DNA of 64,000 nucleotides from Isoetes taiwanensis (Eukaryota; Streptophyta; Lycopodiopsida; Isoetales; Isoetaceae), in NCBI GenBank assembly GCA_021234155.1, contig JAJEKV010000034.1, positions 1,364,001 through 1,428,000 on the forward strand, in the 5' to 3' direction. Every line of letters begins with the position of its first letter. Positions within the stretch are counted from its first letter, which is position 1. Made by a program: the position numbers and the translations under genes. Of the stretch, positions 37,575-60,347 are shown piece by piece. A model generated the notes under the pieces. That model searched no databases and was not told the origin of the DNA. It saw only the letters and a list, made by a program, of their open reading frames with translations.

Positions 37575-38086
37575 AGCACGAATTCATTAATTAGAGAAAT
37601 TTGGAATTCTCGTTTAGCATGAAATAGGTTAGCGGGTAGCCATATAGTGCAAAAACTACTACCAATTGAGTAAAAGTTGGCGTTTTTTTGCACAAATTCT
37701 GCAAATGCTTCAGTCTTATTCGGAAATATAGTTTTTACTGCTAATGCAAAGGTTCACCGCGAGTATAACGTAGTAGGAGGGAGTGTGAAAACTTCTCGCA
37801 AGAAGCGCGAACGCGATGTTTCGCAGCTGAAAGGAGACGAAAGAATGTGCCTTTTATTAAAACCATATGAGAGCATTGTGTTAAAAGAAGGTACCGAGGA
37901 GCAAGGATATCACACAAAATTCAGTATTTAAAGCCATGTAATTGCTACAGAGGATCGCGGTCGCGATTATTTTTAGCATTAAACATATGGTAAAAGATAT
38001 GGGTAAAGACAAAACCAAAGTTTTCGAAACAAAAATTTCCATTGAAGGAAGTAATATACAACATAATTACTGATTGAAGGAGATAA

Positions 38087-39372
38087 TTATTCTGATTGTG
38101 TTTCAGATACTTGATCAGGTATCACACCCATTTCATTGGCCATGCGATTGACATGCTCTCTACCCAATTCCATAGCTTGTGTTGTGTCCATCTCTGAATA
38201 ACCTGTGATCTCTGGAACTACAACACCCATGGCGTTTGCGATGCGCTGCAGATGTGAATCAGGCTCCCATTCTTCACTGTCCACTGCACTGCTCCCGCCT
38301 ATAAGTTCGTTTTGCAGTAGCTCCGCAGCAGTAGCATTCTGATGTGGATGATAGAGCTTCTGCTTCTTGCTGTGTACCTGATGCTCCTGTGACCCAAGAA
38401 CCTCATCTTGGTCAATGTCCATGTGCTGTTGGTCTGCTTCCATGTGCTTTGGGTCTGTTTCCATGTGTTCTACGCCCACGTATTCAAACTTATGTTCGCC
38501 TGTCAAGAAAGGCATGTACCCATCAAGCTTCTCATTAAGTGCATTCAATTTTTGGAAAGTGGGCTCCAGGGCTTCTATACCTTTTTCCGTCTCTTCAAGC
38601 AAGCGCTTTGTTTCTTGCATTCTCTCTTCGTAGGACTTAGCATCGAGGTTTTCCAAAATGGAACCCAACTTTGATAGATCTGTGTTTTGGGTGATACCGA
38701 TGTCGGGTTGAGCTGGATCGATCGGTCAACATTCTCTCGCTTCGGCTCTTCCTCAAACCCATCGGCACTTGGATTGGCCATCTTATCAAGCGTTTCAAAG
38801 AACGCCCTCAGGAAACGGCACACTTTACCTGAACTTTCGAAAGCCACGCTCTTTTTGCCTTGCATAAGAGCAACACGAGAAGCCGTCCCAGCCGAAAAGA
38901 AATCCAGAACACAACCATCAGTCGGCACCAGCTGTTCAACAATATGGTAGGCATAGGAGGTTTTCAGCTGGCATTTCAATACAAGATCTCCTTCCATTGC
39001 CGCCCATTTGAATCTTGGTTTGCCTGTAAAAAGAGTCTGATATTTCTTTTTTATCTTCTCGTCGGCATCCTCATTACCTGTTAGCGGCATTGGAGGCAAT
39101 GGTGTTGACTTAGGAGCCTTGCCGTGTGGATATAGGTGAAGCTCCAACTCTGGTTGCACAGGTGCTACACGAACATCACTCCTGTTAATGCACATATGAC
39201 TAATAAAGTACTGATGTTCTTTCACCCTTCTTTTGCTCTCCCATCCCATTTCTTCATAGGAACCTAAAGATAGGTAGCCACCGCCCTGAATTTGCTTCTG
39301 ACTGAACAAGCAATTGGGCAAATTCACTGAGCGCATGATAATGACCAAGTGATAAACTTTGGCATCCGTCAT
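38087..39372 (-). pseudogene. Methyltransferase-like protein of element A
   Basis: About 430 codons in two frames joined by a frameshift near 38680. Residues about 140-195 ('YHIVEQLVPTDGCVLDFF', 'SAGTASRVALMQGKKSVA', 'FESSGKVCRFLRAFFETL') resemble the AdoMet-binding end of N4/N6 DNA methylases (family pattern: '..G..VLDPFAGSGTT..A....GR..IGIE....'), with the glycine loop at 38910-38875. The DPPY-type catalytic motif, expected upstream in this circular order, is not seen, so activity is uncertain. After the shift the protein is a Glu/Leu coiled coil, a 'HMETDPKHMEADQQHM' repeat, and two 'RIANAMGVVV'-type repeats. A related gene sits in element B at 55361-56173. Confidence 0.48.
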
Positions 39373-40560
39373 GGTAGCTATCCTTGTAAATAGATCTGTG
39401 TATTTCTTGCAATCCCATACCTTGTTTATCCCTCGGATGTCAATAAATATCGATTAATGCATTCTCCTATTACACTTGGGAGGAAGTAGGGATGCCATCC
39501 TTTGTCACCGCTATGACAATATTTTTCTTTTCCTTTCTTTTTTCTAGCCTCTTCCGCTATAGAATATTCCCCGATTGGCTCCAAAAGGCTACGGTAGGTT
39601 ACCTAGTGTATGATCCTTGTTATAGTTAGCCTTCACGCATCTGATATCGGATCCGATATATCCAAAGATTCTCTGTTCATGAAATCGGGAAAAGCCCTCA
39701 AGCAATTCCTCCCAGCTATCGAAATCCTTTTGCAGCAAATTTGAGGCATAAGACAAAATTTCGCTACTCATAAAAGTGAGGGTTCTGATGTCAATTGCCC
39801 GTTATGCGCAATCAAATCTCCCGCTATAACCCCGATCGCACCTTTAAATAGGTCTTGCCTTCTATAATCTCATCGAAAGCAACTGGGACAACAACTCAAG
39901 ATTCGACATACCTCGTAGCAACCGGAGCCGTCTTGTTAAAGAAGTCTTTGGATGGCTTGTCCGAAACTCACCATGATCGCCACCGAAGTTTACGACTCAC
40001 CCACGACCGGCAACTTCCATTAACTTCTTGAAAACCTTCTCATCCATAAAAATGAATTGCTTTTCATCCTTAAGCTCCCGCACTTTCAAGGTGGTCGTTG
40101 CAATTTCATGGAAATCCCGCAGAAAGCAATTTCAAGGTCATCAAGATCGCGGGGCCACGAACTTGGCGAGTAGAAAACAAATAAATACCTTCCAAGCTGA
40201 AGTTTTAGCTGTCCCTATAGGTCCTTGTGGAGGGCAACCATAAGCCTTGTGCCGATGACGGTTGTTGCGCTTTTCAATCGGTGGCTCTCTCACACCTGGT
40301 GTTTGCAATTACTTCGTTGCATTGAATACTCAACTCTATATATTCCTTTGTCCAGAAGATTTCGTTCAGCACCCTCGATCTTCTTCTAGCATATACTTTG
40401 AAAATTCTCGTTCTTTTGCTCGAACTTCATGCCGACGAATCAACAAAGGAGTTGTGCAAAGACAAATACCGTGGGTTGCCGTAAATAATATAAAATTTCT
40501 TGCCCTTCAAATCTTCCGATTGCTCCATGTCACCCTCCTCCTCGAAAGATAGACAACCGT
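39373..40560 (-). pseudogene. Upstream coding relics of the methyltransferase gene
   Basis: Minus-strand fragments in changing frames look protein-like: 'GINKVWDCKKYTDLFTRI' leading into the gene above, 'MSSEILSYASNLLQKDF', and 'KDEKQFIFMDEKVFKKL'. They may be exons or frameshifted parts of one large protein. A palindrome copy lies at 40143-40164. Confidence 0.35.
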
Positions 40561-40911
40561 CAGTCAAATCTACATAACGAAAGTGTCCAAAAGATAAAGA
40601 ATTAGTTACCCGGTAATAGGGTCAAACGAACGGCGTCCGCCAGGGGTGAGGACCTCTCACTGGGTATGTCTTGAAGCTTTTAACCGTAGTTTGAACATGG
40701 TCATTTGACCGCATTCTCAGGTGTCAAGTTTGCTGGTGCAGGTTCACAATCAAAAATAGAAATCTTTGTAAACCAATTAACCCCTAAGGGGTAGAACCTT
40801 TGAACCTGCTCAAGCTTCGAAAGTGGTTTGCTCTGCGATCTTAATTCCTCTTCGGGATTGAACTTCAACTCGACCGAATGGCGGTGTGCTTGGGGCCATG
40901 TCAATGCTAGT

Positions 40912-41770
40912 TTAGAGGAGGCATTCGTGAATCGAGGGGAGGGGGGCGGGGGTTGAGAACTGGCGGGTCATGCGGGCTATCCTCACGAGGTGTCGATTCT
41001 TAAGGCTAATTTTGAAAGGAGGGAATTTTTTGGAATAAATCCACCGATGTGTATTGCTATCCGGGGCCTTCATAGCAATAGGAAGAGTAGGGTTAACAAT
41101 ACCGGAGGGGTTTATCGTGGATTGTGGTTCTTGAGCAATTTCTTTTGGTGCTGAGGTCTCTCCCAAAGTAGCAATAGGCTTCACACTCTTTTCTTGGCCA
41201 CGGCTCTTAGCCAATTGGTGTCCATCACGGAGGGCATCTTCTCGTCCCCAACCGCTTTCAAGGCACAAACGGAGGCTTCTTGTGCAGAGACAAACCATTT
41301 CTCGCATGTCGAGAACCCGAGCAATATGTCTCTGTTCCCTTTATACCGATAAAGAGATTCATAGGATGGCAACAACCAGCCATACCCCTTAGCCGACGCC
41401 GGACGTTTTTCCCTCGTGGTCGGCTTGTTCATTTTGCTTTGGCCGCCATCAAAGACGGGTCATAATTGCGCCATTTCAAAATGTACTCCGTAAACCGCAA
41501 TGCTTGTGGGTCCTCAATGCCGCATATGATGGCATCTTGCACATTGTTCTTCGTGCCTTCCCACATTGCCACCACTATGCCAACTTGTTCAACGCCCTCG
41601 GCTTTTTTCCAAATCCAGAAACAGCACGTGTCCTTTCCTTCTGCGATCACCCTTAATGTGCGGTATATAGCCCGTGCAATCTCGATACACCATTTCCTTT
41701 CATTGGAAGGGGTTATAATACGGACCGGCTCGACATCCGGTCCTCTAAGAGAGCAAGTCTTTGTAAACAA
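40912..41770 (-). pseudogene. Unrecognised gene relic in element A
   Basis: Three consecutive, overlapping minus-strand frames (41770-41429, 41432-41181, 41307-40912) read as one protein with frameshifts or short introns: 'ERKWCIEIARAIYRTLR', 'CCFWIWKKAEGVEQVG', then 'YGWLLPSYESLYRYKGN'. Position relative to the methyltransferase matches the ORFs at 54.5-55.0 kb in element B. No family recognised. Confidence 0.4.
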
Positions 41771-42004
41771 AAGCTCAGAGTGAGTGCCCGGTAGGCTGCA
41801 TAATGTGGTGCAATAAAAGGTTTAAACTATCAGAGAAAACGCGACCACATCCCCGCCAAGCAAGCCTAAAATAGAACTCCACACAATGCGCCGCGACTTT
41901 GTGTAGCACTTAAGCACGGCAAGAAAACACATTGCCGTCGCGAAACTAATGACCTACTACACTAGTACCGATGAACATCGCAATAAAGAAAATCTATGCT
42001 CAGC

Positions 42005-42245
42005 CGCACCACGTCAGCGATCTTGATGAGCAGCTACACTTATGAAGACCGCTATCCGAAATTATAAAACCAATCAAGCAAGACCACGGTCACGATCTTG
42101 ATGAGCAGCTACACTTATGAAGACCGCTATCTAGAAATTATAAAACCTATCAAGCAAGACCACGACCGCGATCTTGGCCGAGCATCTATACTTATGAAAA
42201 CAATAGAAATTCTAGTAGGCAAGATCGCGGGCCGCGATCTTGCCG
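42005..42245. repeat. Palindrome-bearing ~80-bp tandem repeats
   Basis: Three or four units share 'gatcttgatgagcagctaca' (or its variant), 'cttatgaagaccgctatc' and 'attataaaacc.atcaagca'. Each ends in a copy of the element A palindrome. The last copy (42221-42241) is a perfect 21-bp palindrome: 'aagatcgcgg', a central g, then the inverse. Confidence 0.85.
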
Positions 42246-43322: not shown

Positions 43323-43611
43323 AGATCGCGGTCGCGATACCTTCAACCATCTACACTTGCTATTGACCAAAGAACTCCCAGATATCGATAACTTAGAGTT
43401 GAACCCACTAGCTAGCCTCGAAATTTGATTTGCACGAGTTCTTATTGAAACAAATGTGTGAATGCTTGCAAATAGCGCGACCGCGTTCTTACCCATGCTC
43501 GATAAGATCGCGGTGGCGAAAGTCGTGACCATTTCTTTTTTTCAGTTCATATTTTTGTAGTGGTTTATGATCACGGTGCTTTACGCTCACTAGGATCGCG
43601 GCCGCGCTATT
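43323..43611. repeat. Cluster of element A palindromes
   Basis: Copies at 43323-43340, 43471-43490, 43504-43524 and 43592-43611 are variants of 'agatcgcgg.ccgcgatct', just upstream of the DUF7869-like gene. Another copy lies at 37953-37968 near the left end of the element. Confidence 0.8.
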
Positions 43612-43634
43612 CACGCGACCTCTTGTTTGGAGGA

Positions 43635-45482
43635 TGGCTGATGTAATTCCGTCAGATCTGGCCGGGGAAAAAGGTGGCGTAAGGAAGAGTCCACAATTTG
43701 AGCGCCATCACAATTCGGACCGTCCCGAGGGTATGGTTGTCGCTTCAATTGTGAATGTTCTGGATGGACAGTTACGCTACCAATTCCCGAATTGGAAATA
43801 GAAAAAATGGGTGAAGCTGTGGGGACTTTTGTGTTGTGGTACAAGAAGGACATTGTTGCTCCACTAGATAGACATGAGGAAGCTTGCACCCCACCAGGTC
43901 AGATAAAAAGGATAGACTGGCAGGACAGAGGGAATGAGGGGTTAGCCACTAATGAGACGAATCATGTGCAAGGGCTTTCTAGAGATGAGTTAGTTGAGAA
44001 GGCGTGCACACTCATGCATGAATGCTGCTACATGGCTTATGCCTATGGTGTTATCGTTTTTGCCGATCCAAACCATGCTGTGTCTGACGTGAAGTTAGGG
44101 GAAGGCTCGATAGTCGCTACTATCATGGACATTTTTCCAATGCCCGAAAAGATCTCTATCTTGCCGCCAGTTCACGTGCGTAAATGCCCCAACTGCATGA
44201 CCTTGTGAGATGGCCCATAGCCCTCGTGCTCGTTGATAACATTCCAGTTTCTACTCTTGTGGTTGCGGTGAAGGAGAAGGATGTGGAGAATGAACCTTAC
44301 TCCATTAGACCCGAAATTGGCATCACCAAAAAGAGACCTTACAGCATGGTCAATCGGAGACCCAGAACACGCCCAGCACAGACTAAATGTGAAAGAAAAA
44401 CTAGTGCTGAGGCTATTCTAGACTTCAGGTCATCACTGTGCTGCATGAAACGATGCTGTGCAAATTTTACATCCCAGGAGATAGCTTGCATGAGAACCTT
44501 TTACTGGAACATGAAGTCCTCGGAGCGCACAACTTTTGCATATAACATGCTAGATCTTTGCTCTGAAAATGGTGTAGTCCGCAAACTGATGTTGAATAAC
44601 AAACAAAAACGGGGGTGTGCGTGAAAGCATGGCATAAAGCCTATGGCATTCCCATTTCCACTTTTTACAAGTGGAAGAAGCTCTTCAATGACGGCCACAG
44701 AATTGCTGAGCACGGAAATACTGGGTCTAAGAAGCCAAGGTCTCATACTTTGGCTGGCAATGCTGTGCTATCCATGTTCATAGATGAAAACGCAGACGAT
44801 GCCACACCGCCGAAAATTACGAGCGCGGGGTAGCGCACAAAATGTTAAGAGGCTACCTTCAGTCTTGACTAAGAAGGATATACACCAAGAAGTAGATATT
44901 TCCGTTACAGAGATGACAGGCAAGCATATTTCTCCTTCGTCATTTCTGTCTGCTTGGAAAGAGAATCATTCAGAGGTAGCAATAGCTAAGAGGATAGCAT
45001 TTTCCAAGTGTAACACCTGTATTGTCATAAAGGAAAAGCTTGCTAAAACCAGAGATCCAAACGAAAGAAGGGTACTTGCAATAGAGAGAAAATCACATAT
45101 GACGGCCCAGATTTCATGCAGGAGCCTTTACTGGTCCTGGAGAGCTTTGTCGCATAGATCTCCTGAGCACGCTTTAACCATTATACATGATAAGATGGAT
45201 CAGAATAAGACCATGGTCCCTCGTCTAGAGAAGCTAGCAAAGTCTGTATGGAGGGGTGAACGACTGAAGGTCAGTGTTACAGGTGCTCTCATGCACGGCC
45301 ATGGTATAGGTGCCTTGGGCCACTTCTCACTGGACCTCTGGCCTGATGATTCTAATTTTCATGTGGGATCCTTGAATCATACCTTGAAGACACTGGAGAA
45401 TAAATCTGAGGATAATTGGGGCCATTTGAGAGATACTGATCGTCCTGAAAGCAGCTGGGGTGCAGCAATTTTAAACACAGAT
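43635..45482 (+). pseudogene. DUF7869-like transposon protein, N-terminal part (element A)
   Basis: Protein-like sequence continues through four overlapping frames (43792-44208, 44184-44624, 44615-44833, 44784-45482). Landmarks shared with the homolog at 48700-45735 are 'GVIVFADPNHAVSD', 'SSLCCMKRCCANFT', 'AWHKAYGIPISTFYKW', 'FSKCNTC', 'MTAQISCRSLYWSWRAL' and 'IIHDKMDQNKT' (Asp at 45189). It ends in 'AILNTDN' exactly where element B is inserted, and 'LRTKMMNGSRN' continues the same frame at 57783. In this family the conserved acidic residues suggest an RNase H-like transposase, but that is inference. Frameshifts make it inactive. Confidence 0.72.
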
Positions 45483-45514
45483 AACCATCATTCAATTAAA
45501 TTGGGATTATGTCT
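45483..45514 (+). repeat. Element B left TIR
   Basis: 32 bp, the perfect inverse of 57747-57778. Confidence 0.92.
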
Positions 45515-45734
45515 TAATTTTGGGATAAATTTTATATTGCACTTTTTTAGTAACTTTGTTAAATTCACCTTTTTAGTAACTTTGTTGCCCTTAGACTAGA
45601 ATAGACGTTAACATATAATCACACACGGGAATATAAACTCACACCTTAACTTCAAATTACAAAATCATATATCATGGAACTCAAGTAGTACACAACTTTT
45701 ATTAACTGTAGAAAAGATACATAGTAATTGTGAT

Positions 45735-48700
45735 TCATTTTTCCACTAGCATCCCCAAGGATATGAGAACCTTATTCCTTACATCCTGAGGTATTGTAAC
45801 TCTCGCTGTTTTACTAGGAATAGTTTTTGGAGTCCACGAGTACAATACGGTTTCAATGTCTAGCCAAAGATCAGGATCACTTGGATTTCTCCTCCACCTC
45901 TTTGTCCAACAATCTGAATATCTTTCTTTATCGGTGACATTACTCAACTGATGTACTTTGGACACCACCATTCCACGCCAAGCACCTTATTGAAGTTAAC
46001 ATCACCTTCTTCTTTGCAAATATCCGAGATAGTCCATCCCAACCACACTGGATAGGTCTCTAGATTTGCTGGTTTTACTACTACAAATTGGTTGCACTCC
46101 ACGTCAGTAGAAGGTTCATAAGAATCCATGCCTAGATATTTTGGCCTATCCTTCTTAGGACCAACATAGTGTTTATCAGATTGAGGAGGAGCATATGCCT
46201 TCACAATGCTACTAATGGTACCATCATCTTCGTCAGCACCAGCTAATGTTTTTCACTTACTTTTAGGGAACCACCCTTCTTTCAGCTCTTCAGAGGATGT
46301 GTCTACCTCATCCAACAAGTTGATCACCTTCTTCCAATAATCTATCAATGCACGATTTGTGTCATCTGAATTAGTTTGCCAATGCTTGATGTAGTCATTG
46401 ATGCCATCCTTAGTCAATCCCAATTGCTTGACTTCTTCAGTTGGTTTTAGAGCTTTTGGTTGACCAGGAGGTATCATAGGCTTGCCATTTGCATCCCTGC
46501 GCCAAATTTCTGCCCCACCTCTCCACTTCTCCTCTGAAGGTCTCATTTTCCATTGCATGATTGGAATCCCTTCTCTCACCCAAAAAGTGAATTGAAGAGG
46601 TCTAGAATGACCTTCCATGTCGAGAGCATAACCATCCACAAAACTCTTCCAATCAGGCACTTCTTCTATGATAGATCCTATAGGAGATGGATTTGTACAT
46701 CCATGAAATATTTCCAATAGCCTGAAAGTTGGTAACCGTCACTGTCTCAATACATGACTATATTTTCCAAACAATGCATCCACATCCTCATGAGTATGTC
46801 CGGGCATTAGGAACCCCAAATTGACTCTTTCAAAAACACCCACAGCTGTTAAGTAGGATAGGAAAGAAAACATCCACCTGTTCTTATTTTGACCAAAGAC
46901 AATTATCTAGTTGCAAGAGGAACTTTCTGGGCAGGATCTCGAGGTTTAGCACGAGATGTTGAAGCTCCAACATGTTCATTAGGTCCATTCCTCCTAAATC
47001 TTGCCTTGGTAAACTTTTCAATACTATTAGGGGTTCCATCCAACAATGCACTATGTAGTGCCCGGCTAGTCAGTAGGATCCTGTAGGTGACCATTGTAAC
47101 CCTTCTCATAGTTTCTTAAACACCTCATGATACTCCCAATGTGAAAATCTGGACCATCACTCCACAACTCTAAACCGAAATGGCCATAATAGGTCCGAGG
47201 CTGCCCATGCAATATTGCCCCATCATTGAAATCTGCAAAGGGTATGATCTTCCACATGACTTAGGAATGTACTTGAATTGTGGAAGACAAGTCTTACTGT
47301 TGGTCCATTTTATCATGTATAATACATAGATAGTTATTAGGTTCCATTGCGTATAAGGTCCTCCACATCCAATAAGTTGATCTACATGATAGTTGATCTG
47401 TCATATGGTCCTTCATATGTTCCCTTATCTTTGCCCTTAGACTTGGTTGCACAGTCTTATCTAGTGTCTCCTTCAGCTTGGCACATAAATTGCACTTGGC
47501 AAAGTTGTTTGAAGTTGCTATGGTCACATGCTTGAAATGCCTATTCCATAGCCTACTAAAAAAGCTGGCTGGGATATAGAGGCCACTCCAAGTTCCCTCA
47601 AGCAATGCATTTATTTCCTCTAATATGCTCTTCTGGGTACAATGGGATGGCAATCTCTTTTCAACAATAACTCTACCCTGTTCATCCTTCTTACTCTTAT
47701 GTGGCATGTTTTCTGCATTGAAATCCACATATCTTTCAAATATTTCCTTTGCAGCTATAGTTCTTGAGGTAGGCCTTACCAGGCCATTGTTCCCATGCAA
47801 TGCAATTTTACTACCATTTTCATGTCTCTTTTGCCAGTTGTGCCAAGAAGAGGTTGGAATTCCATGTATAGCCATCCATGCTTTTGAACATATCCACTTT
47901 CCATTCAATGGGAATCTTATTTTCTTTGATCTTTCATCCTGAATTGCATAGCCAAATATGGTGTACATGAAATTCCTCCTGCTATCACACTTATGTTCCT
48001 GATATGTAGCTCTTGCTACCACCATCTCTTCTATTGTGAACATTCTAATACAGGAGGCCCAACAACATTCACTTCCTCTAACCTGCATCAGGGCTTCCGG
48101 AGAACAATCATAATCTGACTTACATCTTTTGGTGGGATAATGTTTGAAAGTTGGAAGTGGCCTCTTGCTACACTGTGTAAACATTATTGACAATGGTTCT
48201 ACATCTATAGGAAACGTGTAGTTCCCCTCCAGTTGAATACTGTCCCTAGGCCATGCAACAATAGTTGGAACCTCTAGTTGCTTCACACAAGCTAGGCATT
48301 CTTGTTTGCCTGAACCCTTTTCCTTCCAATTGTCATATAATTTTGAGATTGCCACACCTAACCTGTCCTCCCCTAATCTTTCATCATTCACTGCATTGAT
48401 AGGATCTGCTAGAACAATAATCCCTTCTCCTACTGCCTCTCTGTTGGATGCATGCAGGATCTTGACCTTTTTGTTTTTCCAATCGACCCTAGTATAAAGT
48501 ACAATTTCCTTTCCTGTGGCATCATCCTTTTCATTTGAGGTCTTTTCCTTTCCTTTGCCATCATCTTTGTCATCTTCATCCTTTTCATTTCTGGTCTTTT
48601 CCTTTCCTTTCCCATCATGTTTGTCATCTTCATTAGTTGGGGATTTTTCTTTGCCTTGATCACCATCATTGGGGGCCTTGGGGGATTTAGCATTTTGCAT
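45735..48700 (-). pseudogene. DUF7869-like transposon protein (element B)
   Basis: The first frame (48700-47294, ATG start) gives 468 residues. The N-terminus has charged 'DGKGKEKT' repeats (residues about 10-60), followed by 'GIIVLADPINAVND', 'GSECCWASCIRMFTIEE', 'AWMAIHGIPTSSWHNW', 'FAKCNLC', 'MTDQLSCRSTYWMWRTL' and 'IIHDKMDQ'. The protein then continues with frameshifts or stops: 'GHFGLELWSDGPDFHIGS' (47257-47066), 'LLQLDNC' near 46930, 'NKNRWMFSFLSYL' and 'GFLMPGHTHEDVDALFG' (about 46880-46760), 46717-46253, 46204-45944 and 45971-45735. The Asp/His motifs match element A. It probably encodes the mobilising enzyme, but as read it is broken. Confidence 0.72.
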
Positions 48701-49200
48701 GCCATTGACCTAAAATGAATAAAAACCTATAGTAAGTTAGCATATCCAAATAACATCTCCCTAACATGTTCTTAAATGAAAGTTAACCTTAATAATAACC
48801 TTAATAACCTATTATAACTTAATCTATAATAATAATAAGTTTACCTATAATATATTAACTTTTAAGGTTAGAAGTTGTAAGGTTAAAACTTCTAACCTTC
48901 AATAAATATAACCTTAGCCTAAAACTTCTAAAACTTAAAACTTCTAAATTCAAATTCATAAACTTTTAAACTTATAACCTTATTTATGAACTTAAAAATA
49001 TTAACCTTAACTAATAACCTTAACTTATAAACCTTAAAACTATTAACCTTAAATCTTATAACTTATATAACCCTTGCAATAAATGTTCGCGGCAGTTATT
49101 ATGGCGCGGTACGAAATTTTTTAAAGCAGTTATTATTTCCAGTTTACAATCCCTTTCCCACTTTTCCAGCTTTTCTGTCTCTCTTTCGAACTTCAAACTC
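48701..49200. repeat. AT-rich 'aaccttaa' degenerate repeats
   Basis: Many irregular copies of 'taaccttaa', 'cttataacctt' and 'aacttctaa' upstream of the minus-strand gene. It looks like a degenerate minisatellite in the divergent promoter zone. It is not a clean telomere repeat. Confidence 0.6.
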
Positions 49201-49720
49201 TGGTGCGCTTTCGAACTCTGCTGGTGCGCTTTCGAACTCTGCTCGCTTTTCTGTCGAGCTTTTCGGCTATCTGCTTTCGATCTATCTATCTACTTCATTC
49301 TGTCGAGCTTTTCGGCTATCTGCTTTCGAGCTTTTCGGCTATTTGCTTTCGAGCTTTTCTGGCTATCTATCTGCTTCAATCTGGCTATCTAGACACTTCA
49401 ATCTGCTTCAATCCCGAATTCTATTTGCTTCTCGGCTTCTATCTGCATCAATCTCGACTTTTCGACTTCTATCTTCTTTAAACTCGGCTTCTATATGCTT
49501 TAAACTCGGCTTTTCGAGCTTAGGGTTTTCGGCTCAAAGTTGTTTTCGGCTCCAAGGTTTGTAGGCAGAATTCTCCAAGGTTTTTCGGCTCTGTACAATC
49601 TCTCTGACTTTGAATAACTTTGGTTTTTTGTGTTAAAGCTACTCGGCTTCTAGCTGCTATTACTTTGGTTTTCGATCTTTTGGTTTCGGCTCGAAGTCAA
49701 AGGCTCAATTCTCGGGTACA
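49200..49720 (+). repeat. Degenerate 'cttttcggctatctgctttcgag' repeats
   Basis: Repeated 'gcgctttcgaactctgct', 'gagcttttcggctatctgc' and 'ctcggcttctatctgct' units of about 20-30 bp. This pyrimidine-rich tract may be the 5' leader of the plus-strand cargo. Confidence 0.65.
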
Positions 49721-49899
49721 GAACACAAATAGGTTAGTATCTCTCATTCTTTTAGTTATTTTACAGAAAGCATGTTATTTACTTTTACATGCATCAGTAT
49801 ATTTACCACAGTTAATTTAATCAGTTAATCAGTTACTTTTACATGAATCAGAATATCCTGCTCTATGATCTTGTTCTGTGATCTTGCCTATATGATCTG

Positions 49900-50160
49900 C
49901 TCTTATTCTATTTCACTAGCTCTTCCTCTATCTGTTCTAATTGATGATCTAAAATAATGAAGTTATTCTATTTCACGAGCTCTTCCTCTATCTGTTCTAA
50001 TTAATGATCTGAAATAATGAAGTAAATAATGATCATAGATCATATCTGCTCTATGATCTTGCTCTATGATCTATGATATCATAGATCATAGATCTTCACT
50101 AGCTCTTTCTCTATCTGCTCTAAATAATGAACTAAAGCAATGAACTAAACAATGAACTAA
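49900..50160. repeat. Tandem 60-bp duplication and 'atgatct' repeats
   Basis: 'ttctatttcac.agctcttcc' units at 49907 and 49967 start two ~60-bp copies. They are followed by many 'atgatcttgctctatgatct' motifs around a palindromic 'atctatgatatcatagat'. Confidence 0.75.
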
Positions 50161-50402
50161 TACTGGCTTTATATTTTGAATTCTGCATTCTGCATTATGC
50201 ATTTTGTTAGAATAATATGTTGGAATGGGAGAAATCGCGCTTGGCGCATTTCTATTTTTTAAGTTACGTTTTCCACTAGGTTAATCAAATCGCCGCCAGC
50301 GCTTTTTTTAGTTTGGCATTTCAATTTCATACGGCTCTATACAAATCGCCCCGGTGGCGTGTGAAATAGATCTGTGCTAATTACTTTCTCTCGTTCTAGT
50401 GC

Positions 50403-50801
50403 CATGGATTTTCCTTATGCATGGACACCGGGCTGGTTCAAATACACCGGGCTGGTTCTAGTTCCCCTGGGCGACCATCAACTCGACCCCGCACAAGATA
50501 TTACTTGAGTGTCTTTGTTCAAAAACGTTCAAAGAGAGTTGGAGAATCCATTAGACGGCTTTTGTATCGGGGGCCATGGGTACACTTCCATCGCATCTAT
50601 GGACATATCGGACTCCTCATGCTCTTAGTAAGGCTCATGCCAACAAATAAGTACAAGGATTTGATTTATAGTATCGTGGATCGATACAACACTCGGTTTG
50701 GAGACTCGACATCCAGCAGGGAAGATGAGGATCCCGTCATATCGTGGTGGTTCAGGTGGGACTTCTTGGGGATTGGGCAGATGAAGTGGGCCTGTGTGTG
50801 A
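50403..50801 (+). CDS. Unrecognised small cargo ORF, element B
   Basis: Open frame of about 130 codons ending TGA at 50801. The C-terminal part is protein-like ('YKDLIYSIVDRYNTRFGD', 'EDPVISWWFRWDFLGIGQ', 'MKWACV'). Element B palindromes lie before (50232-50362) and after it (50822-50905). No family recognised. Confidence 0.4.
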   Translation, partial: HGFSLCMDTGLVQIHRAGSSSPGRPSTRPRTRYYLSVFVQKRSKRVGESIRRLLYRGPWVHFHRIYGHIGLLMLLVRLMPTNKYKDLIYSIVDRYNTRFGDSTSSREDEDPVISWWFRWDFLGIGQMKWACV

Positions 50802-53392
50802 CATATTGTAGAGATAGAAAGAATTCGCCGCTGGCGATTTTTGCGAAGAAGAAATGTACATAAGATTTTTGAATATGAATACAAACTCGGCGCTGGCGCT
50901 TAATTTGCACTATACTTTTCCTCGTCATTAGTTTATTTTTTTTTTTATATGCAATGGCGAAAAATATTGAATCCTGTGATGCCCTCCAGCCGGTATGACC
51001 AACCCCAAGAAACTACCATATTTTCATTAATGTGTAGTTTCATGGGGTTGATAAAACTGCTAAAGACCATCCACCAATTCAAAGTTCACAACATCACGCA
51101 GACGATATGATATATTCTTTTTTTTTTTGAATATCCAAATATACATACCTTTTTCGACGTTCTTTTGGCCATGCTACAAATGTGCCCACACTTTCACCAA
51201 CCGTGACGCCAGGATGTCTTCTTGGAAGAGCCTCATCTTCATAATTGCGGTTTATAATGGAAATCTTACGTAAACTGTTTCCAAGAGGAACACCATGACA
51301 CATTGAATTTGGATTCGGATCTTGATTTTACATAAGCCTACTTCGGCGCTTCAAGTTTCTTTGTTAAAAGATAGCATTCTTCTCCTATTAATCGATAAAG
51401 AACCGAATTCATTGGAAAAAATAGAGGACGAAAAATAGAGAACAAGAGAATGCATTGAATGGAATCACACTCACCATAGTTCAGCGACATCGAATGGGAT
51501 TGAAGGCGGCTCTCGATCGAATGGGATTGTAGGCGCTTTGATAGAAGATTGTTCTTGGGCCTGAAAGTAGGAATGATCTTGGGCTCGATAGTAGGAATGA
51601 TCTTGGGCTCGATAGTAGGTGGCCGATTAGGTGGTAGTAGATTGCCACATATGCGTTTCTTGAAATTAATAATTAATGGTTCTTGAAATTGCACTAAAAA
51701 GAAAAACACAATTTTAAATTTGTAAATGAGCGGGACGGGCGGTTAATTAAAGGCGGTATAAATTTAAAAGGACGCGAATTTGAATTTACTGGGTTTTAAA
51801 TCTGACGCCAAGATTATGAACGATACATATAAGTTTAAACCAAAATCCTAGCCTCATACTATCCGCACTTGCGCTTCAATGGCGTCTAGAGGATCTCGCA
51901 GCCCGGCCGAGGCGCCGGTAGAGGTGGGCGGCAGTCCAAAGCACAAATGCAAAGCCCGGAGGTCTGAACACGAAAAGCACAAATCCAACAAGCGCCTCGG
52001 GTAATTGATCCGTTTTTGTTCCAGAATTGATCTCTCGTGTCCCTTTTTTGTTAGGGTTTTTAGGATGTTTTTCCTCAGAAAGTTATTATCCAATAAGAAG
52101 CATGTGTCCTCTAATGTTTGAGTTCATATGTCCCAAAAATGTATGGAAACAAATGCTTAATGTGTACTTTAATTCTCAGATGTCTTGCTTGAAGCTTGTA
52201 TACTTAGCTGAACAAGATTCAAAGAGCTAGTTGTGTTTTTTATAGTTAGTTGTGTCCTCGATGAAGATTCAACTCTTAAAGTTGCATTTTTATAGTTAGT
52301 TGTGTCCCGAGCATTTTGATTCGGACAAAACGCCCTGGCGCAGCTTTAATTAGGCATTACATTAGTTTCATTATCTTTCGGTCACTTCTAAAACGCCAAG
52401 CGCCGTATTTGTTGCATTTTGATCGGGACAAAACGCGCCACGGCCTCGACCCCAATAAACTAAATGAACTTGCTGTGTATTCATTTTCAAATCGCCAAGC
52501 CGCCGCGTTTTGTTGCATATGTGTCGGCGACATTTATTTGAGCATAAAAAGATTAACCCATGTCTTTGTAATTTCACGGGATCACAAAAGACAATCAAAA
52601 GAGGGAGGACCAAGCAAGGCGAGACCTCTGATCCCCGTAAAAGGCAAAGGACGTAAGAAGATGTTACCGTTATGCACTGCTAAAGATGTATTGACGTTAG
52701 AAGATACATCCGAATAATAAAGGCTCGTAGAACCTCCATGTCCGGAAGAAGATCTTATAGAGGGGTCGAAATGGTATGTGGAGATATTCAAAACTGGTGG
52801 GAAGACAGACCTCATATTCATGTCAAGGTTAAGAGAGACCCGATCAAATGAAGAAGCAGGAATTCTTATTATATGTGAAGCACGGATCGATTCTTTACGC
52901 TTACATTGCTAGTTGAAGTGGGCCAAAAACATAAGAAAAGCCTAAAGAAGATCAATCGATGCGGTCACGAGCTCTTTTAAAGAGAGATCTTTAAGATCGC
53001 ACGACATGGCCGATAACCTCTTCAAATTTGGTCGACAGTGGCGAGCCATTGACTCCTATAAGAATATGCGAGGGGCTTACAAATTGCTCGACGAGCCATT
53101 AGCACGAGGCCCCCGGGCAAAGGTCTACTTACAGGCAAAGAAGGACAAGGAAGAAGCTAGCTCTAGAGGCGTGGAAACTACGAAGTGACAAAGCAGCCTT
53201 ACAAGTGACGCATGACAAGGCCAGGCGCTTGGAGGCAATGAGCAAATCAAGAAATATGCCGACAAGTATCCACTGGGCCTCGACTTCACACATCCAAATC
53301 AACGCGGGATGTGGAGCTTTTCAGTCCACTAAAGCTATTTATATCAGCAGAAGGTATGACAAGCAAAGACTCCTTGGAGATATTGAACAAAG
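50802..53392. other. Broken cargo region with palindromes, element B
   Basis: Short protein-like frames, for example 53006-53188 ('MADNLFKFGRQWRAIDSY'), alternate with palindrome copies near 52327, 52391, 52430 and 52488. I cannot assemble a gene. A 52316-52717 frame contains several palindrome halves and is probably not coding. Confidence 0.4.
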
Positions 53393-53602
53393 ATGATCGA
53401 AAAATCCAGTGGCAAAAGCAATGCCCGCAGATGTAGTGCCTTACGATACCGTAACAAAAAGGTAATCATCTGGAGCAAGCTGGAGGACTTCATCGAGAAC
53501 CCAGACATACATTTTATGATAATAGATGGCCAGCATTCAATAGAGGCCCAGAAGATTCTCATCAAGAAGGCACAAAGATCTTGGGAATCGGTTGTTCTAT
53601 AA
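53393..53602 (+). pseudogene. 'DGQH' ParB-like protein fragment
   Basis: 69 codons ending TAA at 53600-53602. The core 'NPDIHFMIIDGQHSIEA' has the DGQH(R/S) signature (53525-53539) seen in ParB/Srx-like and DGQHR domains, which act in DNA partition, nucleotide hydrolysis or phage/transposon cargo. Upstream coding sequence in other frames ('TSKDSLEILNKDDRKIQW') suggests a longer, frameshifted or intron-split protein. A ParB-type function is inference from one motif. Confidence 0.42.
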
Positions 53603-53822
53603 GTCAGATTCATCGAAACCGCGGTTCGAAAGCCGGTCAACAACACCGAACTAGCCGAAATAAGCGCGACTCCTAAATGACATGGGAAAAACTTTCTTAT
53701 ACAAAAGGTAATTCTCTTCCCACATTTTTATTTTTCAGATACCAAATCGCGCCAGGCAACCGCGATTTCATAGTAGAAGGCAATGGGTTCCTGGGATGGT
53801 AGACGTTTCCCGTCAAATAAGC

Positions 53823-53911
53823 AAATCGCGCCTGGCGCGATTTTATATTAGAATACAAGTTGAGCCACGCGCAATTTGTATTCTAATATAAAATCGCGCC
53901 AGCGCCGATTT
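53823..53911. repeat. Nested palindrome cluster, element B
   Basis: Two 21-bp palindromes (53823-53843, perfect; 53891-53911) are joined by inverted arms ('ttatattagaatacaa' and its inverse), so that about 89 bp form one larger palindrome with 36-bp arms. Further copies flank it at 53743-53768, 53970-53990 and 54004-54024. Confidence 0.88.
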
Positions 53912-54543
53912 GCTTTATACGACTAGAACCATCTACTATTTCAAAACCCTTTGCTATTTAGCGAAAGGCAAATCGCGCTGGCGCTTATTTGCCTTCTAAT
54001 ATGAAATCGCGGCGTGGCGCGATTATAAACTAGAAGGATTGTTTGAATTCACGATTATAAAGCTAACGGTTATTCCTTTGCGATCCCTATATAGAGCAAC
54101 TTCGCATGCTCGGAACCGATGGATTGAATATGGGAAGCCAATGCCTACCGAGCAGGGCCAGTCCAAAAGCGCCAATTCAAGTTCTTTGGAAAGGACACTT
54201 AGTCGATCTATAATACGTGACAAGAACAAGAGCACCGGATCAAAGAAAAAAAAAAAAGGAGATGAAAAGGGTGATGTTTGCCAAGAACCAATCTGTGCCC
54301 AAGGATGCCTCGCAAGATAGTTTTTGCTTCCGATCCCGTGATGGGAGAAATGGAATGAATTCAGGGACGCCTACGTGGAGAAGAAGTTGCCGATTCACAA
54401 GGAAGATTTCCTCCTCGCTGACACATCAATTTTGATATCGAGACAACAGAGATGAGGAAGGCCCAGATTAGAAGATCAAGAACTCATCTCGCCTTGGATA
54501 GGTTAATCGAAAGGAAATCCTTTACAAGAAAAACCTCAAAGAA

Positions 54544-55190
54544 CAAAGGCTATGGAATCCTTTGAAGATGCATGCGACGAAATGAAGAATATTAGAGTGC
54601 TCAAGAAGGCGCTTGGTGAGGAATTGCAAAGGCTTACATCGAGTGGTCGCTGTCGGAGTTAGGACTCATGCAAAGTATAACGTCTCCAACGACGACCTAA
54701 AGAAGTATGTATTTTGGTCCAAGGACTTTGTCAAGCGGCCAGGTTGAAGAACGTTGCAAAGATCAGTGGAATTCACACAAAAGTTGCATCCGACTTGAAA
54801 CGAAAAGTCGCGTTGGTGAAGCAGAACCCGGAGACGGAATCCACATTTTTTTATCAAGTGTCCACTGGTTTCAAGTGTGCCTTGCCAGAAGTGGGTGAAG
54901 GTCCTCATGATATCACACTCTTCGTGCTTGATAGTCGAGGCGCCAGATGGTCACTTGAAGACTATAATACGCTCTTCAACATATGCAAGTGGGTTGCAAC
55001 GGCGTAAATGCATTACACAATCGTCACTATATGTCCCTCCGACATGTCCTATGCATATGCTCTAAGTGCTGCAAATGACTTAGAATGCGTGAAAGTCATA
55101 CGACAGGCGATCCTCATAGATGAAACCAAGGACAGTGACTTCAAAGACAAAGAAGTAAACTTTCTCATGTGCTTATTATTATGATAGCCA
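54544..55190 (+). pseudogene. Unrecognised cargo gene relic, element B
   Basis: Pieces in different frames: 'MESFEDACDEMKNIRVL' (about 54551), 'LKNVAKISGIHTKVASDL' (54714-55007, with 'VALVKQNPETESTFFYQV' and 'DITLFVLDSRGARWSLED'), and 'MHYTIVTICPSDMSYAYA' (about 55011). They lie just upstream of the methyltransferase-like frame, as do the equivalent pieces in element A. 'TICPSDMSYAY' could be a degenerate relative of the DPPY segment of N4/N6 methylases; this is speculative. Confidence 0.4.
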
Positions 55191-55360
55191 TTATGGATGA
55201 TAAGGAATATGAAAGGCTTAAAGGGAAAAGCAGATGGAGAGAAACTAGCATGGCGTGCTATCGGTTAGATGAACGCATCTCGCTAAACGCCTTCTATCCG
55301 GAGCAAGAAGACAAGGGAAGGTCATCAAGGTCGTGGAAGAGTTAGAGGAGGAAGAGGAGG

Positions 55361-56173
55361 ATGAGGAAGAAAACGAGGGGCGACCCAGTTCTTGTGGGCC
55401 ACATTAAGTATGAGCTCCTAACTTCACATAAGGGGAAGCTAAACAAGAACGGGTTCTCTATGGATCTTTCCCAGTATCTCATTGAAGCATTTTGTCCATT
55501 GGGAACAACTTGCTGGGAACTTCACGTTGGAGGTTACATCGGTAGAGAAGCTTTGAAGTTAGCAAGGAAATGCCAGAGCGTCGTCTCCGATGATCGAGCC
55601 AGAAATTTTTTGGACCTCTTCTTTGAGAAAGTACTAGAGGAAGCCCCTAGGGGACCAATCGGCAGTGCAAAAAACAAAGCTTCTAGCTCGAAGGCCGAAA
55701 TACCTTCAGATTTGCTTAAGGAACGGGAGAGTCTGAGACAGGCATTGCGTGGCACCAACTTCATGGATGACATGGACGAGCAGCCAGATCTCCAAGTACC
55801 TATCGACATGCCTGTGAACATTCTTGGCCCTGAAAATATAGACCAGTATGACAATGCCAAGGATGATGATAATAACAATCTTGATGATGAAGCAGACTCC
55901 AAATCTGATAACACTAGCCAGGTTAGCGTAAAGAGTAATGAACTATCAAGCGTAGTTCACACTATACAGATCTCAACTGATGTGGTTGGTGCTTCTAGCA
56001 GACCGGAGGCAATTCAGAATAAAGATGCAAGGGATGAAGAGAACACGGGGAATGATGAAGACGAAAGGTATCGTGACAATATTCCTTTTTTTGATATCCA
56101 TGCATTTTTCAAACTAGAAGCTTATAGAAATCGCGCCTGGCGCGATTTGGAGTTTCCTAGAGCATACTTTTGA
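55361..56173 (+). pseudogene. Methyltransferase-like protein C-terminal part, element B
   Basis: 270 codons, first ATG at 55361. It continues a frame with 'YRLDERISLNAFYPEQED' upstream after a stop. Residues about 35-85 ('YLIEAFCPLGTTCWELHV', 'ALKLARKCQSVVSDD', 'RARNFLDLFFEKVL') resemble the AdoMet-loop and following strand of N4/N6 DNA methylases and align with 38910-38790 of element A. The remainder is acidic and disordered (residues 160-245, Asp/Asn/Ser-rich). The last ~15 codons run through a palindrome copy (56128-56148), which may have altered the C-terminus. Confidence 0.45.
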
Positions 56174-56198
56174 ATTATGTTGACATGCATCATTCATG

Positions 56199-56219
56199 AA
56201 ATCGCGCCTGGCGCGTTTT
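56199..56219. repeat. Element B palindrome copy pair (56128-56148 and here)
   Basis: Two copies 71 bp apart. The first is identical to that at 53823; the second has one substitution in the right arm. A further copy lies at 57429-57449, and a half copy at 57731-57742 next to the right TIR. Confidence 0.85.
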
Positions 56220-56301
56220 TGTTTTCCATTTCTTTCATCTCATACGTTATTGTTCTCCTTACGTAAAATGATTTGGCTTCCCAAAAGTACCGGTCTTTGA
56301 T

Positions 56302-56520
56302 TTGAATGGTGTGCTATGTAGAACGTTACCTAAAGCAACGTTTGAAAAGTCATGGTATCTTAACAACCATTTGAGACACGTACCAAATATGTTTACCCGC
56401 CCCTTATCCGAAGGAGATGTTGGACCAGGCCTTCACCGTTTTGCAGCAATTTGGTCATCCATGGAGCATAGAAATATACGTGATGTTTTGAAAGTAGTGC
56501 CCGAGCTAAATAGAAATTGA
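56302..56520 (+). CDS. Small cargo ORF, element B (unrecognised)
   Basis: 72 codons from ATG, 'MNGVLCRTLPKATFEKSW' to 'VPELNRN'. Protein-like composition. Downstream, in another frame, 'CLRNMMDALGVEDKEGII' and 'DDDALKCCFNP' (about 56600-56705) may belong to the same broken gene. The latter has the look of an acidic nuclease C-terminus, but this is not enough to assign. Confidence 0.35.
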   Translation: MNGVLCRTLPKATFEKSWYLNNHLRHVPNMFTRPLSEGDVGPGLHRFAAIWSSMEHRNIRDVLKVVPELNRN

Positions 56521-57152
56521 AGCCCATCCGGGATCAAAGCAAATGTGCTTCATTCACAAACCCTAAAGAACCGAAGCAGGTAAAAAGATATTTGTGAAAT
56601 GCTTGCGCAACATGATGGATGCCCTAGGTGTTGAGGATAAGGAAGGCATAATCATTGTGGATGATGACGCTCTAAAGTGTTGCTTCAATCCGGTCCACAG
56701 TCATTGAATCCGCCATCCTATCATCCTCAAGATTTTGACAAAGATGACTTCCCCGCTTTGTTAGTGTCCCGCAAGAAATAGCTTCAGAAAAACGGTCAAG
56801 AGATATACACACACTATACCCACACCTTGATCGGACAGGGAAATTGACAGGGAACTTGAGAAAATCGTCCTAGAAAGGGAACTTTTTGATATATATGTAT
56901 ACAGAAATACACTTTCCAAAAAGTTTTGAATATGAAATATACTTTATCTAAAAAGGTTTTGAATATATATTGTGTTCTTTTATCAGCATTATTGGTTACG
57001 TATGGTATTATTATTTTTTTATATTACGTGTACGGTTTGTTATACTTGCAATAATTTGTAGGTATATACTGTCAATAATTTTGGTGTGTATAAATAGGTA
57101 TGCATGAAATAGCCCCTGAATCGGCTTCGGTCTCCGCCTTCTCCTTGTTATT

Positions 57153-57383
57153 ATGGCACATTCTATTACCTGCAAGATGAACCATGCGGACCTCTGCAGG
57201 TGCCGCGAGCTAGAAATAGAACTTCAGGACTGGCTTGATGTCGTTGCTATGAATCTTGTCCGCTTCTATCCTGATCCCTTTAATGTTGTAATCCATCTTA
57301 TATGGAATCCAGAGCATGGTTTGTTCATGATCGACAGGATCTCAGGACCGCCTGCAGCGCCTGAGGACGATGAATCTGATTAG
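57153..57383 (+). CDS. Small Cys-containing cargo ORF, element B
   Basis: 76 codons from ATG at 57153 to TAG at 57381. Contains 'CKMNHADLCRCRELE' (C-x3-H-x3-C-x-C), then 'DWLDVVAMNLVRFYPDPF' and an acidic end 'APEDDESD'. A TATA-rich stretch lies upstream. A single intact frame between palindrome copies is compatible with a small protein. No family recognised. Confidence 0.4.
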   Translation: MAHSITCKMNHADLCRCRELEIELQDWLDVVAMNLVRFYPDPFNVVIHLIWNPEHGLFMIDRISGPPAAPEDDESD

Positions 57384-57746
57384 TTTTTGTAGTTTATGTT
57401 CTATTGTAATGCGTTATTTATGCCAAGCAAATCGCGCCACGCGCGATTTGAACCACGAAAATCTCTGTTTTGTAGCAACTTGCTTGTTGTTATTTACTCG
57501 TAAAGCTTTACAATTTCATTGTTTAGATTTCGTTGTCGTCCGTGAATGTGCGAATTAATAGGCAATTTCCTGCTTTTTCAACTGCCTACATTCTGTCATA
57601 ATATGGGTCATTTGCATCAAATATTTGAATGCCTTTGCATTTTCACATAAAATGCATATTCCCAGCCCGAAAATGAACACAGTGCAAAAGTGTGGTTAAT
57701 TCAATATAATGGTCAATAAAATGCTTATACGGCGCGATTTTGGAAT

Positions 57747-57778
57747 AGACATAATCCCAATTTAATTGAATGATGGTT
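57747..57778 (-). repeat. Element B right TIR
   Basis: 32 bp, the perfect inverse of 45483-45514, immediately followed by 'agataacc'. Confidence 0.92.
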
Positions 57779-57782
57779 AGAT

Positions 57783-59060
57783 AACCTTAGGACAAAAATG
57801 ATGAATGGCAGTAGAAATGATTTTATGCCTCCTATCAAAGGCCCTATGGTAGCAAACAAGTTGCCTAGGAGGCTTTACTTGCAGCTAGATAATTGCTCAG
57901 GTCAGAATAAGAATAGATATCTTTTCTCTTACTTGTCATACTTGGTTTGGTTAGGTGTATTTGATCAAGTGCAGCTGGGATTCATGATGGTTGGACACAC
58001 CCACGATGACATAGATGCCCTATTTGGAAACTACTCTACTCTAATGAGAAGATCAGATGCATTGACTATTCCGGAGCTTATGCAACTCTTGAGCAAGCAA
58101 GAGTTCAAAGGCTCCTTCACCTTACCTTGTGATAGAGGTTCCCGATTGGAAGGAATTCGTGAAAGGATTTATCCCGATAAGAAGGACCGTTTATGTGGTC
58201 ACTTGGAACCTCTACTCTTCAAGTTTTGCATGAAGGATGGATGGCCACTAATGTTCTACAAGATGAGGCCGGGCATAGGGAGTGGCTCCCCCTAAAAGGA
58301 ATCAGAATGTGGAAGGAGGATGCCCAAGGTTTACCTATGATTCCGAGAGGGTCACCTAAGGTCCCGCAGCCATATGGGAGCTTGAAAGATATAGGTGCAT
58401 TAAGAGCTTCTATTGCCAAGTACATGATGCAATCGGGCGCCTATTTCTAGAGTTGGGCGATAAGTCATGGTCCAACACATATATGAATGAAGTTATTGAC
58501 TACTTGGTCCACCTTCTGCGCGAGTGCTTGGTGACGTGCAGCCCGGTAGAGAGCTGTCATTCAGATTTCGGCCCGGACTGTGCAAAGTGCATTGGAAGAA
58601 CCCGAAAGAGTGTTTGTGGATGAGCACATTGAAGCATCTCATTACGTAGGGCCTTTCTGGGTAGACCCAAGAACCCGGTTGAAATATTCGACCCCCTACC
58701 AAGATGTCAAGAAGGGAATGCTCTTGCTAATCGGACCACATGATAACGCGACATGGATGGCTTTTGCGAAGAGGACCCATGAGGACCCTAATCTCCCACA
58801 TTATGAAGAGGTGTTTGTCTCTTGGTTTGAACCTGTTTGCCGAAAAGGGAACCTCATATGCAATGCAAGATAGGGATTGTTGGAGCAAGAATTGGAGACC
58901 CAATCCTAATGACCCGCCACGTTACCAACCTTTGAAAACAATAGACTATGGTTGGGCCGTAGAGACCAGGCCATTGTCGCTGGTGATCCCCGGTAGTGTT
59001 CGGGCTCGGTTGCAAGAATTAGTGGCTAAAGAAGCTAAGGGCGATGATGAGAACTCTTGA
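57783..59060 (+). pseudogene. DUF7869-like transposon protein, C-terminal part (element A)
   Basis: Continues the frame cut at 45482: 'GPMVANKLPRRLYLQLDN', 'CSGQNKNRYLFSYLSYLV', 'GFMMVGHTHDDIDALFG' (LDNC at 57885-57896; HTHDDID at 57996-58016), then 'MRPGIGSG' and, after frameshifts, 58193-58450, 58580-58873 and 58740-59060 ('DCWSKNWRPNPNDPPRY'). The 'LDNCSGQNKN' plus 'GHTHDDID' pair is the hallmark I associate with DUF7869. The Asp residues could form a DDE/D-type catalytic set with 'HDKMDQ' in the first half. This part has at least three frame changes. Confidence 0.75.
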
Positions 59061-59199
59061 GGTATGCAATGCTCTTTTACATAATTACTATATCATTCAT
59101 AACATGAAAGTTACAATAGACTAGTTATTATTTGTTACGCCTCTGCGTTTCCATCTCAACACAAGAGCTCTTACACTATACAATGCTAAACAGTGATTC

Positions 59200-60180
59200 A
59201 TTCATCTTCGGGATCTCAGTAGTAGTGATCCCCGATATCTCATAGCTCATTCGCCGGGAAGCCAAATCGGATGGATCATTACACGAATTGACGCAGGGCA
59301 ACGAATCTCGGCCAAAAGCTTTTCTTCGCGGTAGGGATCAAGAAGAAGATGCCCTGCCTAGGCAACCAACAAGATCGAGAGTGGCTCATTGAGCACTTGA
59401 TCGCCTCGATGTGGTGAATTGATGAAGGCAAATAATCCATGTGAGAGGAATGAACTTTAGCCCGGTGAGAAGCTTTTATAGTGAGGTAGAATTATTGAGG
59501 TGAATTATTGGGGTAGACTTCTACCCATTATTGCTCGTGTATAAGACCGTTGTATAAATACAAGTATAATACATCTTTCGTATGGATATAATGTGATGCG
59601 TACTAATATGCGTATGTTTCAAAACATGTTTGCTTGACTAATTTAGCTATGATTGAATTCAATGACAAATTTGCGAGAATAAGTGGAGGTGGGATAGCAC
59701 ATCGTTACAATATACTTTCGCTTAAGGTGCGTGATATTACATCCTTAATCGAATGCTATTACATCCTTACTTAGTTATTAGGTACCCATGTCATTATTAC
59801 ATTATTATTAGCGCTTGATTCACTTTCGTCATCAACATCAAAGCTCGTGATGCCATTCAGCTCATAGATCTCCCCGATCGTGAAGCCGATAAAATATGGA
59901 CTTTAACGCGAGTGAGCTTCCCGCAAGCACTAGCGAGTCCATCAGCTTTAGATAAGAGCCATGGATCAAGCTTAACGCTATTTCTAGCGCGCGTTCGCCG
60001 GATCGTTGTAGCTCAAGTAACACTTGAAAGAGCGGATGTGCTCTGGACGAGGCATCGAGGAAGCCATGGAAGATGAATGGCCTCTACCCCCTCGTGAAGC
60101 CGTTTTTATAGTGAAGTAAAATTATTGATGTGAATGATTGGCGTACAATGTAGGGCCATTATTGAGCTTATACGAGTGTC
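59200..60180 (-). repeat. Two diverged tandem copies of a small minus-strand unit
   Basis: Two blocks (about 59215-59575 and 59825-60205) share 'agcttttatagtgaggtaga'-like sequence, 'gtgaattattgg', 'ccattattg..c', 'tacaagtataa.ac' and coding-like ends ('GEIYELNGITSFDVDDE' in inverse at the second). They look like paralogous small genes or gene ends near the right end of element A, too decayed to call. Confidence 0.45.
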
Positions 60181-60347
60181 ATGTACACGTACAAGTATAA
60201 CACAAAATTTGTATGTATATGTGTATGTTAATTACCTCATGTTTGTTGGGGTCGAGTACTAGGTGAAAGTATTCGTGCTTGAGCAAATAAGGTGTGCTCA
60301 AAATTCTCAAAATTGCGTTATTTTATCCAATTAATGAAATCATCCAT

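Follow-up and report, generated by a model that had tools for sequence, protein, structure and literature searches.

Nested large DNA transposons in Isoetes taiwanensis carrying a putative DUF7869 transposase gene and a divergent ParB- and methyltransferase-like gene

The window, a 64,000-nucleotide stretch of Isoetes taiwanensis DNA (assembly GCA_021234155.1, contig JAJEKV010000034.1, positions 1,364,001 to 1,428,000, forward strand), contains two mobile units, element B nested inside element A, that have precise ends, terminal inverted repeats (TIRs), 4-bp AT-rich target site duplications (TSDs), a high copy number and a conserved divergent gene pair. It is likely, with a probability of roughly 0.68, that A and B represent two cut-and-paste DNA transposon families of autonomous type, with DUF7869 as the transposase and a ParB-like and methyltransferase (MTase)-like protein as a cis binder; transposition itself has not been shown. 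It is proposed that the DUF7869 transposase would bind the TIRs, excise the element and insert it at staggered 4-bp cuts. The ParB-MTase-like protein, as a dimer, would recognise family-specific palindromes in the noncoding DNA of the element and, once bound, would act in cis on the element that encodes it, most likely by countering silencing or controlling the divergent promoters. The features of the two elements are listed below in window coordinates.

37574 to 60347, no strand: element A, 10.47 kb when B is excluded, with TIRs at 37574–37596 and 60326–60347
38087 to 41821, minus strand: A gene for the ParB-like and N6/N4-MTase-like protein, with a C-terminal coiled coil and the ParB-like motif near 40440–40560
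near 39430–39453 and near 38880–38915, minus strand: motif-IV-like FIDIRG and motif I VLDFFSAGTAS of the A protein
42224 to 42241, no strand: A palindrome ATCGCGGGCCGCGAT; others at 37954 and 43325 and, with one mismatch, at 43507 and 43595
43650 to 59060, plus strand: A DUF7869 gene (about 43650–45482 and 57783–59060), split by B; Pfam PF25273 matches its halves with E 4e-5 and 1.3e-34
45483 to 57778, no strand: element B, inserted in the A DUF7869 gene and 12,296 bp long; its TIRs are at 45483–45514 and 57747–57778
45738 to 48709, minus strand: B DUF7869 gene; PF25273 E 0.011 in the window and 4.9e-27 in copy L010
52280 to 56170, plus strand: B gene for the ParB-like and MTase-like protein, several exons, with IIDGQHSIEAQ near 53520–53560
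near 54915–54945, plus strand: motif-IV-like FVLDSRG of the B protein; the C-terminal part of the MTase-like gene lies at 55346–56170
53825 to 53842, no strand: B palindrome ATCGCGCCTGGCGCGAT; others at 50289, 50824, 53893, 53972, 54006, 56130, 56201 and 57431
56280 to 56790, plus strand: NIF/FCP1-like (HAD) phosphatase gene, in B only; broken in the window copy, while copy L026 matches PF03031 with E 6.9e-18
57120 to 57380, plus strand: B small ORF ending HLIWNPE...APEDDESD; a similar small ORF is found in C, a relative of A described below
59100 to 60090, minus strand: two degraded A versions of the small HLIW-type ORF, close to the end on the DUF7869 side

Element B is bounded by perfect 32-bp TIRs (AACCATCATTCAATTAAATTGGGATTATGTCT; 33 bp when one flanking base is included) and by the TSD AGAT at 45479–45482 and 57779–57782. 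Joining its flanks restores the DUF7869 reading frame of A (...ILNTDN followed directly by LRTKMMNG...), and the uninterrupted insertion site, AAACACGATAACCTTAGG, is present in two other A copies (L101 and L102). The sequence-only reading had placed B, with perfect 32-bp TIRs, at 45483–57778 within the DUF7869-like gene of A, and had held that precise ends, target duplications and a restored frame were visible in the sequence; each of these claims is upheld. Twenty B copies retrieved through the left end all begin at AACCATCATT..., and those with both ends carry matching 4-bp TSDs in five of five cases (TAGA, AATC, ATTT, CAAA and AGGA), with the same ends.

Element A is flanked by the TSD GAAC at 37570–37573 and 60348–60351. 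Its left end, previously set at 37575, was off by one and is corrected one base outward to 37574. The right end of the window copy is 60347, where the last four bases are mutated from GCTT to CCAT with the TSD retained; the canonical ends in other copies are AAGCACGAATTCATTAATTAG... and ...AATTAATGAAATCATGCTT (AAGCAC...GCTT). A search of the genome (1,658,258,908 bases) with the ends and with DUF7869 recovered many full copies with the same ends and exact TSDs. In A copies, the TSDs are identical over 4 bp in 11 of 11 and never 5 bp, again with the same ends. Pairing left and right end matches yielded 16 complete A units, 13 of which span 10.37–10.52 kb, and the rough candidate count per element end is about 800–1,100 genome-wide. 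The suggested relatedness of the A and B TIR cores is only partly supported, as the resemblance is weak. An inverted repeat at 37139–37334, immediately beyond the left end of A, has 89-nt arms that are 97% complementary and is possibly a small foldback element.

The DUF7869 gene and the ParB/MTase-like gene lie on opposite strands in a head-to-head (divergent) arrangement. Among top matches, A-type pairs within 30 kb are head-to-head in 37 of 38 cases, mostly 6.4–6.9 kb apart, as are 19 of 19 B-type pairs; the chance expectation for this linkage is about 1.3. The same gene plan, including the divergent gene, recurs in a further element, C (L109/L110), which has A-like TIRs and the TSD AAAG. 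The C proteins are approximately 63–80% identical to those of A, its DUF7869 gene is an intact frame of 1019 aa, and C is considered an older relative of A. Two outcomes would have refuted the proposed family: copies in which the cargo and DUF7869 genes are not bounded by the same ends, or DUF7869 proteins being host genes at conserved loci. Neither was observed, since many copies have both genes enclosed by the same pair of ends, and about 9,900 rough DUF7869 candidates are scattered over the genome. The claim of a large cargo-bearing family is thus upheld, as is that of a shared gene set in A and B, save that the NIF/FCP1-like phosphatase gene is carried by B alone and was not seen in A or C. 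As a separate observation, the small HLIWxPE ORF near the element end is doubled in A and C and single in B. Two further sequences were noted on L003: a sequence related to, but diverged from, the B DUF7869 gene (2213–3078; approximately 71% DNA identity), representing a further family, and, beside a B-type end, an ORF (605–1276) that by eye resembles a pogo/Tigger-type DDE transposase (LLDGHGSH, SHRLQPLD).

The large size, the several genes and the bacterial-looking protein might instead point to an endogenous virus or a Polinton-like element. This explanation is all but excluded: neither protein has viral relatives in IMG/VR, the cargo has none in phage records, no polymerase, capsid or integrase match was found among the ORFs scanned, and the TSDs are 4 bp long.

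The DUF7869 protein is about 1,000 aa long, and candidate D residues are kept in A, B and C (HDKMD, LQLDNCSGQN, GHTHDDID). The B protein is similar to its A counterpart (tblastx E 5e-53). DUF7869 is the sole Pfam match above cutoff for the putative transposase, no relatives were found in viral contigs (IMG/VR), and no mention of DUF7869 was found in the literature searched. AlphaFold models built on shallow alignments reached pLDDT values of 43 and 35 for the DUF7869 and ParB-MTase-like proteins, respectively, and are unusable, so that the RNase H and methylase folds remain unproven. The assignment of DUF7869 as a putative DDE/D transposase is an inference. If correct, it would provide a Pfam domain of unknown function with a function, that of a probable transposase, and with an element structure.

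A plainer alternative is that these elements belong to the Sola superfamily (Sola1/Sola2) with captured cargo, and that DUF7869 is merely the Pfam name for a Sola-type transposase. The 4-bp AT-rich TSDs, short TIRs and long single transposase do fit Sola2, for which an AWWT TSD and an 888-aa transposase are described (PMC3627910); Sola elements are known from moss and Capsicum (PMC9033089), and 83% of bases are A/T over 19 TSDs here. Against this reading, the TSDs GAAC, AGGA, AACT and AAGA fall outside AWWT, and A and B measure 10–12 kb, whereas curated bivalve Sola1 consensus sequences average 5.4 kb (PMC10294476). No Pfam model named Sola was among the matches of the DUF7869 elements. In TSD and protein size, Sola2 comes closest among known elements, without any sequence comparison of the transposases, and the Sola explanation, although a serious contender, is judged to fall a little short of an even chance. 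On the earlier remark that no described superfamily is known to combine these features, the evidence is undecided between a new superfamily and a Sola-like lineage.

In the divergent gene, the sequence-only reading had seen separate methylase and DGQH proteins. This did not hold, as both are exons of one intron-containing gene. In C, the gene consists of exons with GT-AG introns and encodes a long N-terminal part, a ParB-like motif, an MTase-like region and a coiled coil; one exon contains an in-frame TAG, and C is thus not fully intact. The ParB-like motif reads ISGNHSIFAAQ in C and IIDGQHSIEAQ in B (expected type (D/G)G.HR..A). No ParB Pfam match was obtained for the protein, and the DGQH part, in B only, gives a weak DUF6551 match (E 0.014). 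The order within the MTase-like region follows beta-class amino-methylases, and in the protein as a whole the ParB part comes first, then motif IV and then motif I. The motif I region (VIDFFSAGTASRVALMQGKRSVSLE; expected type VLDPFxGSGT) lies near the C-terminus, and all three matches to methylases fall on this same motif: Pfam N6_N4_Mtase PF01555 (E 0.05–0.19, matching the C-terminal end of the profile), PADLOC MTase_II (E 0.03–0.04) and the RsrI methylase in the PDB (E 0.063). Each is below significance, and PHROGs, NCBIfam and PADLOC profile searches gave no significant match. Searches of IMG/VR viral, bacterial-genome and phage sequences found no relatives of the cargo. Owing to frame breaks, tblastx of the A cargo against the B cargo showed no convincing overlap, and the kinship of the two cargo genes rests on motifs and gene order.

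The catalytic motif IV (D/N/S-P-P-Y/F/W) is absent; at the expected place stand FIDMRS in C, FIDIRG in A and FVLDSRG in B, such that DPPY is replaced by D-x-R-[G/S]. The description of a bacterial-looking methylase is accordingly upheld in part: the protein is methylase-like, its catalytic motif is degenerate, and so the function first assigned may be wrong. From the loss of DPPY, it is inferred that the protein acts in DNA binding rather than methylation and that the MTase-like domain is probably inactive, in the absence of activity data and with the fold unproven.

The candidate binding sites are palindromes of the form ATCGC-N4-GCGAT in A and C and AAATCGCGCCNGGCGCGATTT in B. Exact sites number three in A, four in B and six in C, compared with 0.03–0.07 in shuffled sequences (0.03 for A), and none occurs in the remaining 41 kb of the window. 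Genome-wide, ATCGC-N4-GCGAT is found 6001 times versus 518 for a reversed-pattern control, the same half-sites with a spacing of 5 instead of 4 occur 612 times versus 240, and the B form occurs 623 times versus 0. The A/C sites are clustered, as 43 of 50 listed have another within 6 kb, where even spacing would give one per 276 kb. The window palindromes lie outside coding exons (the A site at 42224 is beyond the first ORF, which starts near 41821), and 12 B-form sites near known MTase exons are located −1.5 to −1.85 kb or +0.5 to +0.8 kb from the exon. The half-sites are fixed while 27 different spacers occur among the 50 sites, which points to a dimeric DNA-binding protein, although this is an inference without binding data. 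That the divergent-gene protein combines ParB-like and MTase-like parts, lacks DPPY and binds the palindromes in cis is likewise inferred and is rated less likely than not; its choice as the binder, in preference to the transposase or a host factor, is a guess.

Conversely, the palindromes could be transposase-binding or internal regulatory sites, with an unrelated role for the ParB-MTase-like protein, for example as an active methylase that protects or marks element DNA. This remains possible. Palindromes are also found close to the element ends and in the promoter region that the two genes share, and transposon-borne methyl-modifying enzymes exist (TET/JBP transposons, PMC12730594). However, the sites are mostly intronic, at fixed positions around the MTase exon rather than in subterminal arrays, and the replacement of DPPY described above argues against amino-methylase activity.

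It could also be argued that the cargo consists of host or bacterial genes that were picked up by chance, are decaying and are functionless for the element, since frames are broken in many copies, including both in the window. Thirty A copies (L051–L080) agree over long stretches and differ in short scrambled patches, the frequency of which is 91% at CTG, 88% at CAG and 66–69% at CCG/CGG, with CG sites also affected, versus 7% at CAT. Divergence among copies is 10–12% near CTG/CAG/CG-type sites versus 1.4–2.3% elsewhere. Scrambled patches at CTG/CAG/CCG/CG sites were also noted in B copies (L001–L050). The published assembly (1658.30 Mb) was built from nanopore R9.4.1 reads with pilon polishing (PMC8566536), and the patches follow the pattern expected where unpolished repeats retain nanopore errors at CHG/CG-methylated cytosines. 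Many of the window frame breaks are therefore ascribed to nanopore errors, and decay of the window copies is mostly rejected. Furthermore, relatives at 55–80% identity keep open frames of 450–744 aa and the head-to-head plan, and chance capture of functionless cargo is very unlikely. The error pattern suggests recent copies under heavy host methylation, which implies that any anti-silencing was inactive in the sequenced tissue. More generally, when repeats such as these are assembled from nanopore data, interrupted frames can stem from misread bases at methylated sites.

A bolder interpretation of the elements, put forward only as a possibility, is that they belong to a not yet described superfamily of large DNA transposons in plants, with DUF7869 as the mobility protein and their own ParB/parS-like cis-recognition, in which a ParB-pseudomethylase co-evolved with intron and promoter palindromes to escape host silencing.

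Among known systems, Sola1, Sola2 and Sola3 share the 4-bp AT-rich TSD, short TIRs and long transposase, and Sola2 includes elements with an extra captured gene, Fanzor1 (PMC3627910). They differ in their ends, and the 10–12 kb length, divergent ParB-MTase-like gene and palindrome arrays set the present elements apart. TET/JBP fungal transposons (KDZ, Plavaka, hAT7, PHISTA and others) similarly encode, next to their transposase, a protein of DNA-modification type (PMC12730594); it is a dioxygenase there and an MTase-like protein with a degenerate catalytic motif and a ParB-like domain here. Fusions of a ParB domain to a beta-class N6/N4 methylase exist in bacteria and phages. In these, too, ParB is followed by motif IV and then by motif I, but no significant sequence match was obtained, and the present protein has lost DPPY, is encoded with spliceosomal introns and resides in a plant transposon. 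The tools of plant transposons would thereby be extended by a ParB-methylase fusion of bacterial type that probably now serves in DNA binding.

For the proposed cis-recognition, the comparison is with VANDAL elements (MULEs of Arabidopsis) and their VANC proteins. As here, family-specific short motifs have accumulated in the element's own noncoding DNA and differ between related families; in VANDAL elements, these motifs are bound by the accessory VANC proteins (PMC5735166, PMC10398659). VANC motifs are tandem repeats, whereas dispersed palindromes are found here, and the proteins and transposases differ. MULEs make 8–11 bp TSDs; the TSD here is 4 bp, and the transposase Pfam match above cutoff is DUF7869, not MULE. 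The anti-silencing role of the ParB-MTase-like protein is suggested by analogy with VANC, both binding and removal of methylation being inferred. With the palindrome arrays, the proposal of cis-recognition and anti-silencing becomes directly testable, and, if borne out, it would constitute a second, independent system besides VANC.
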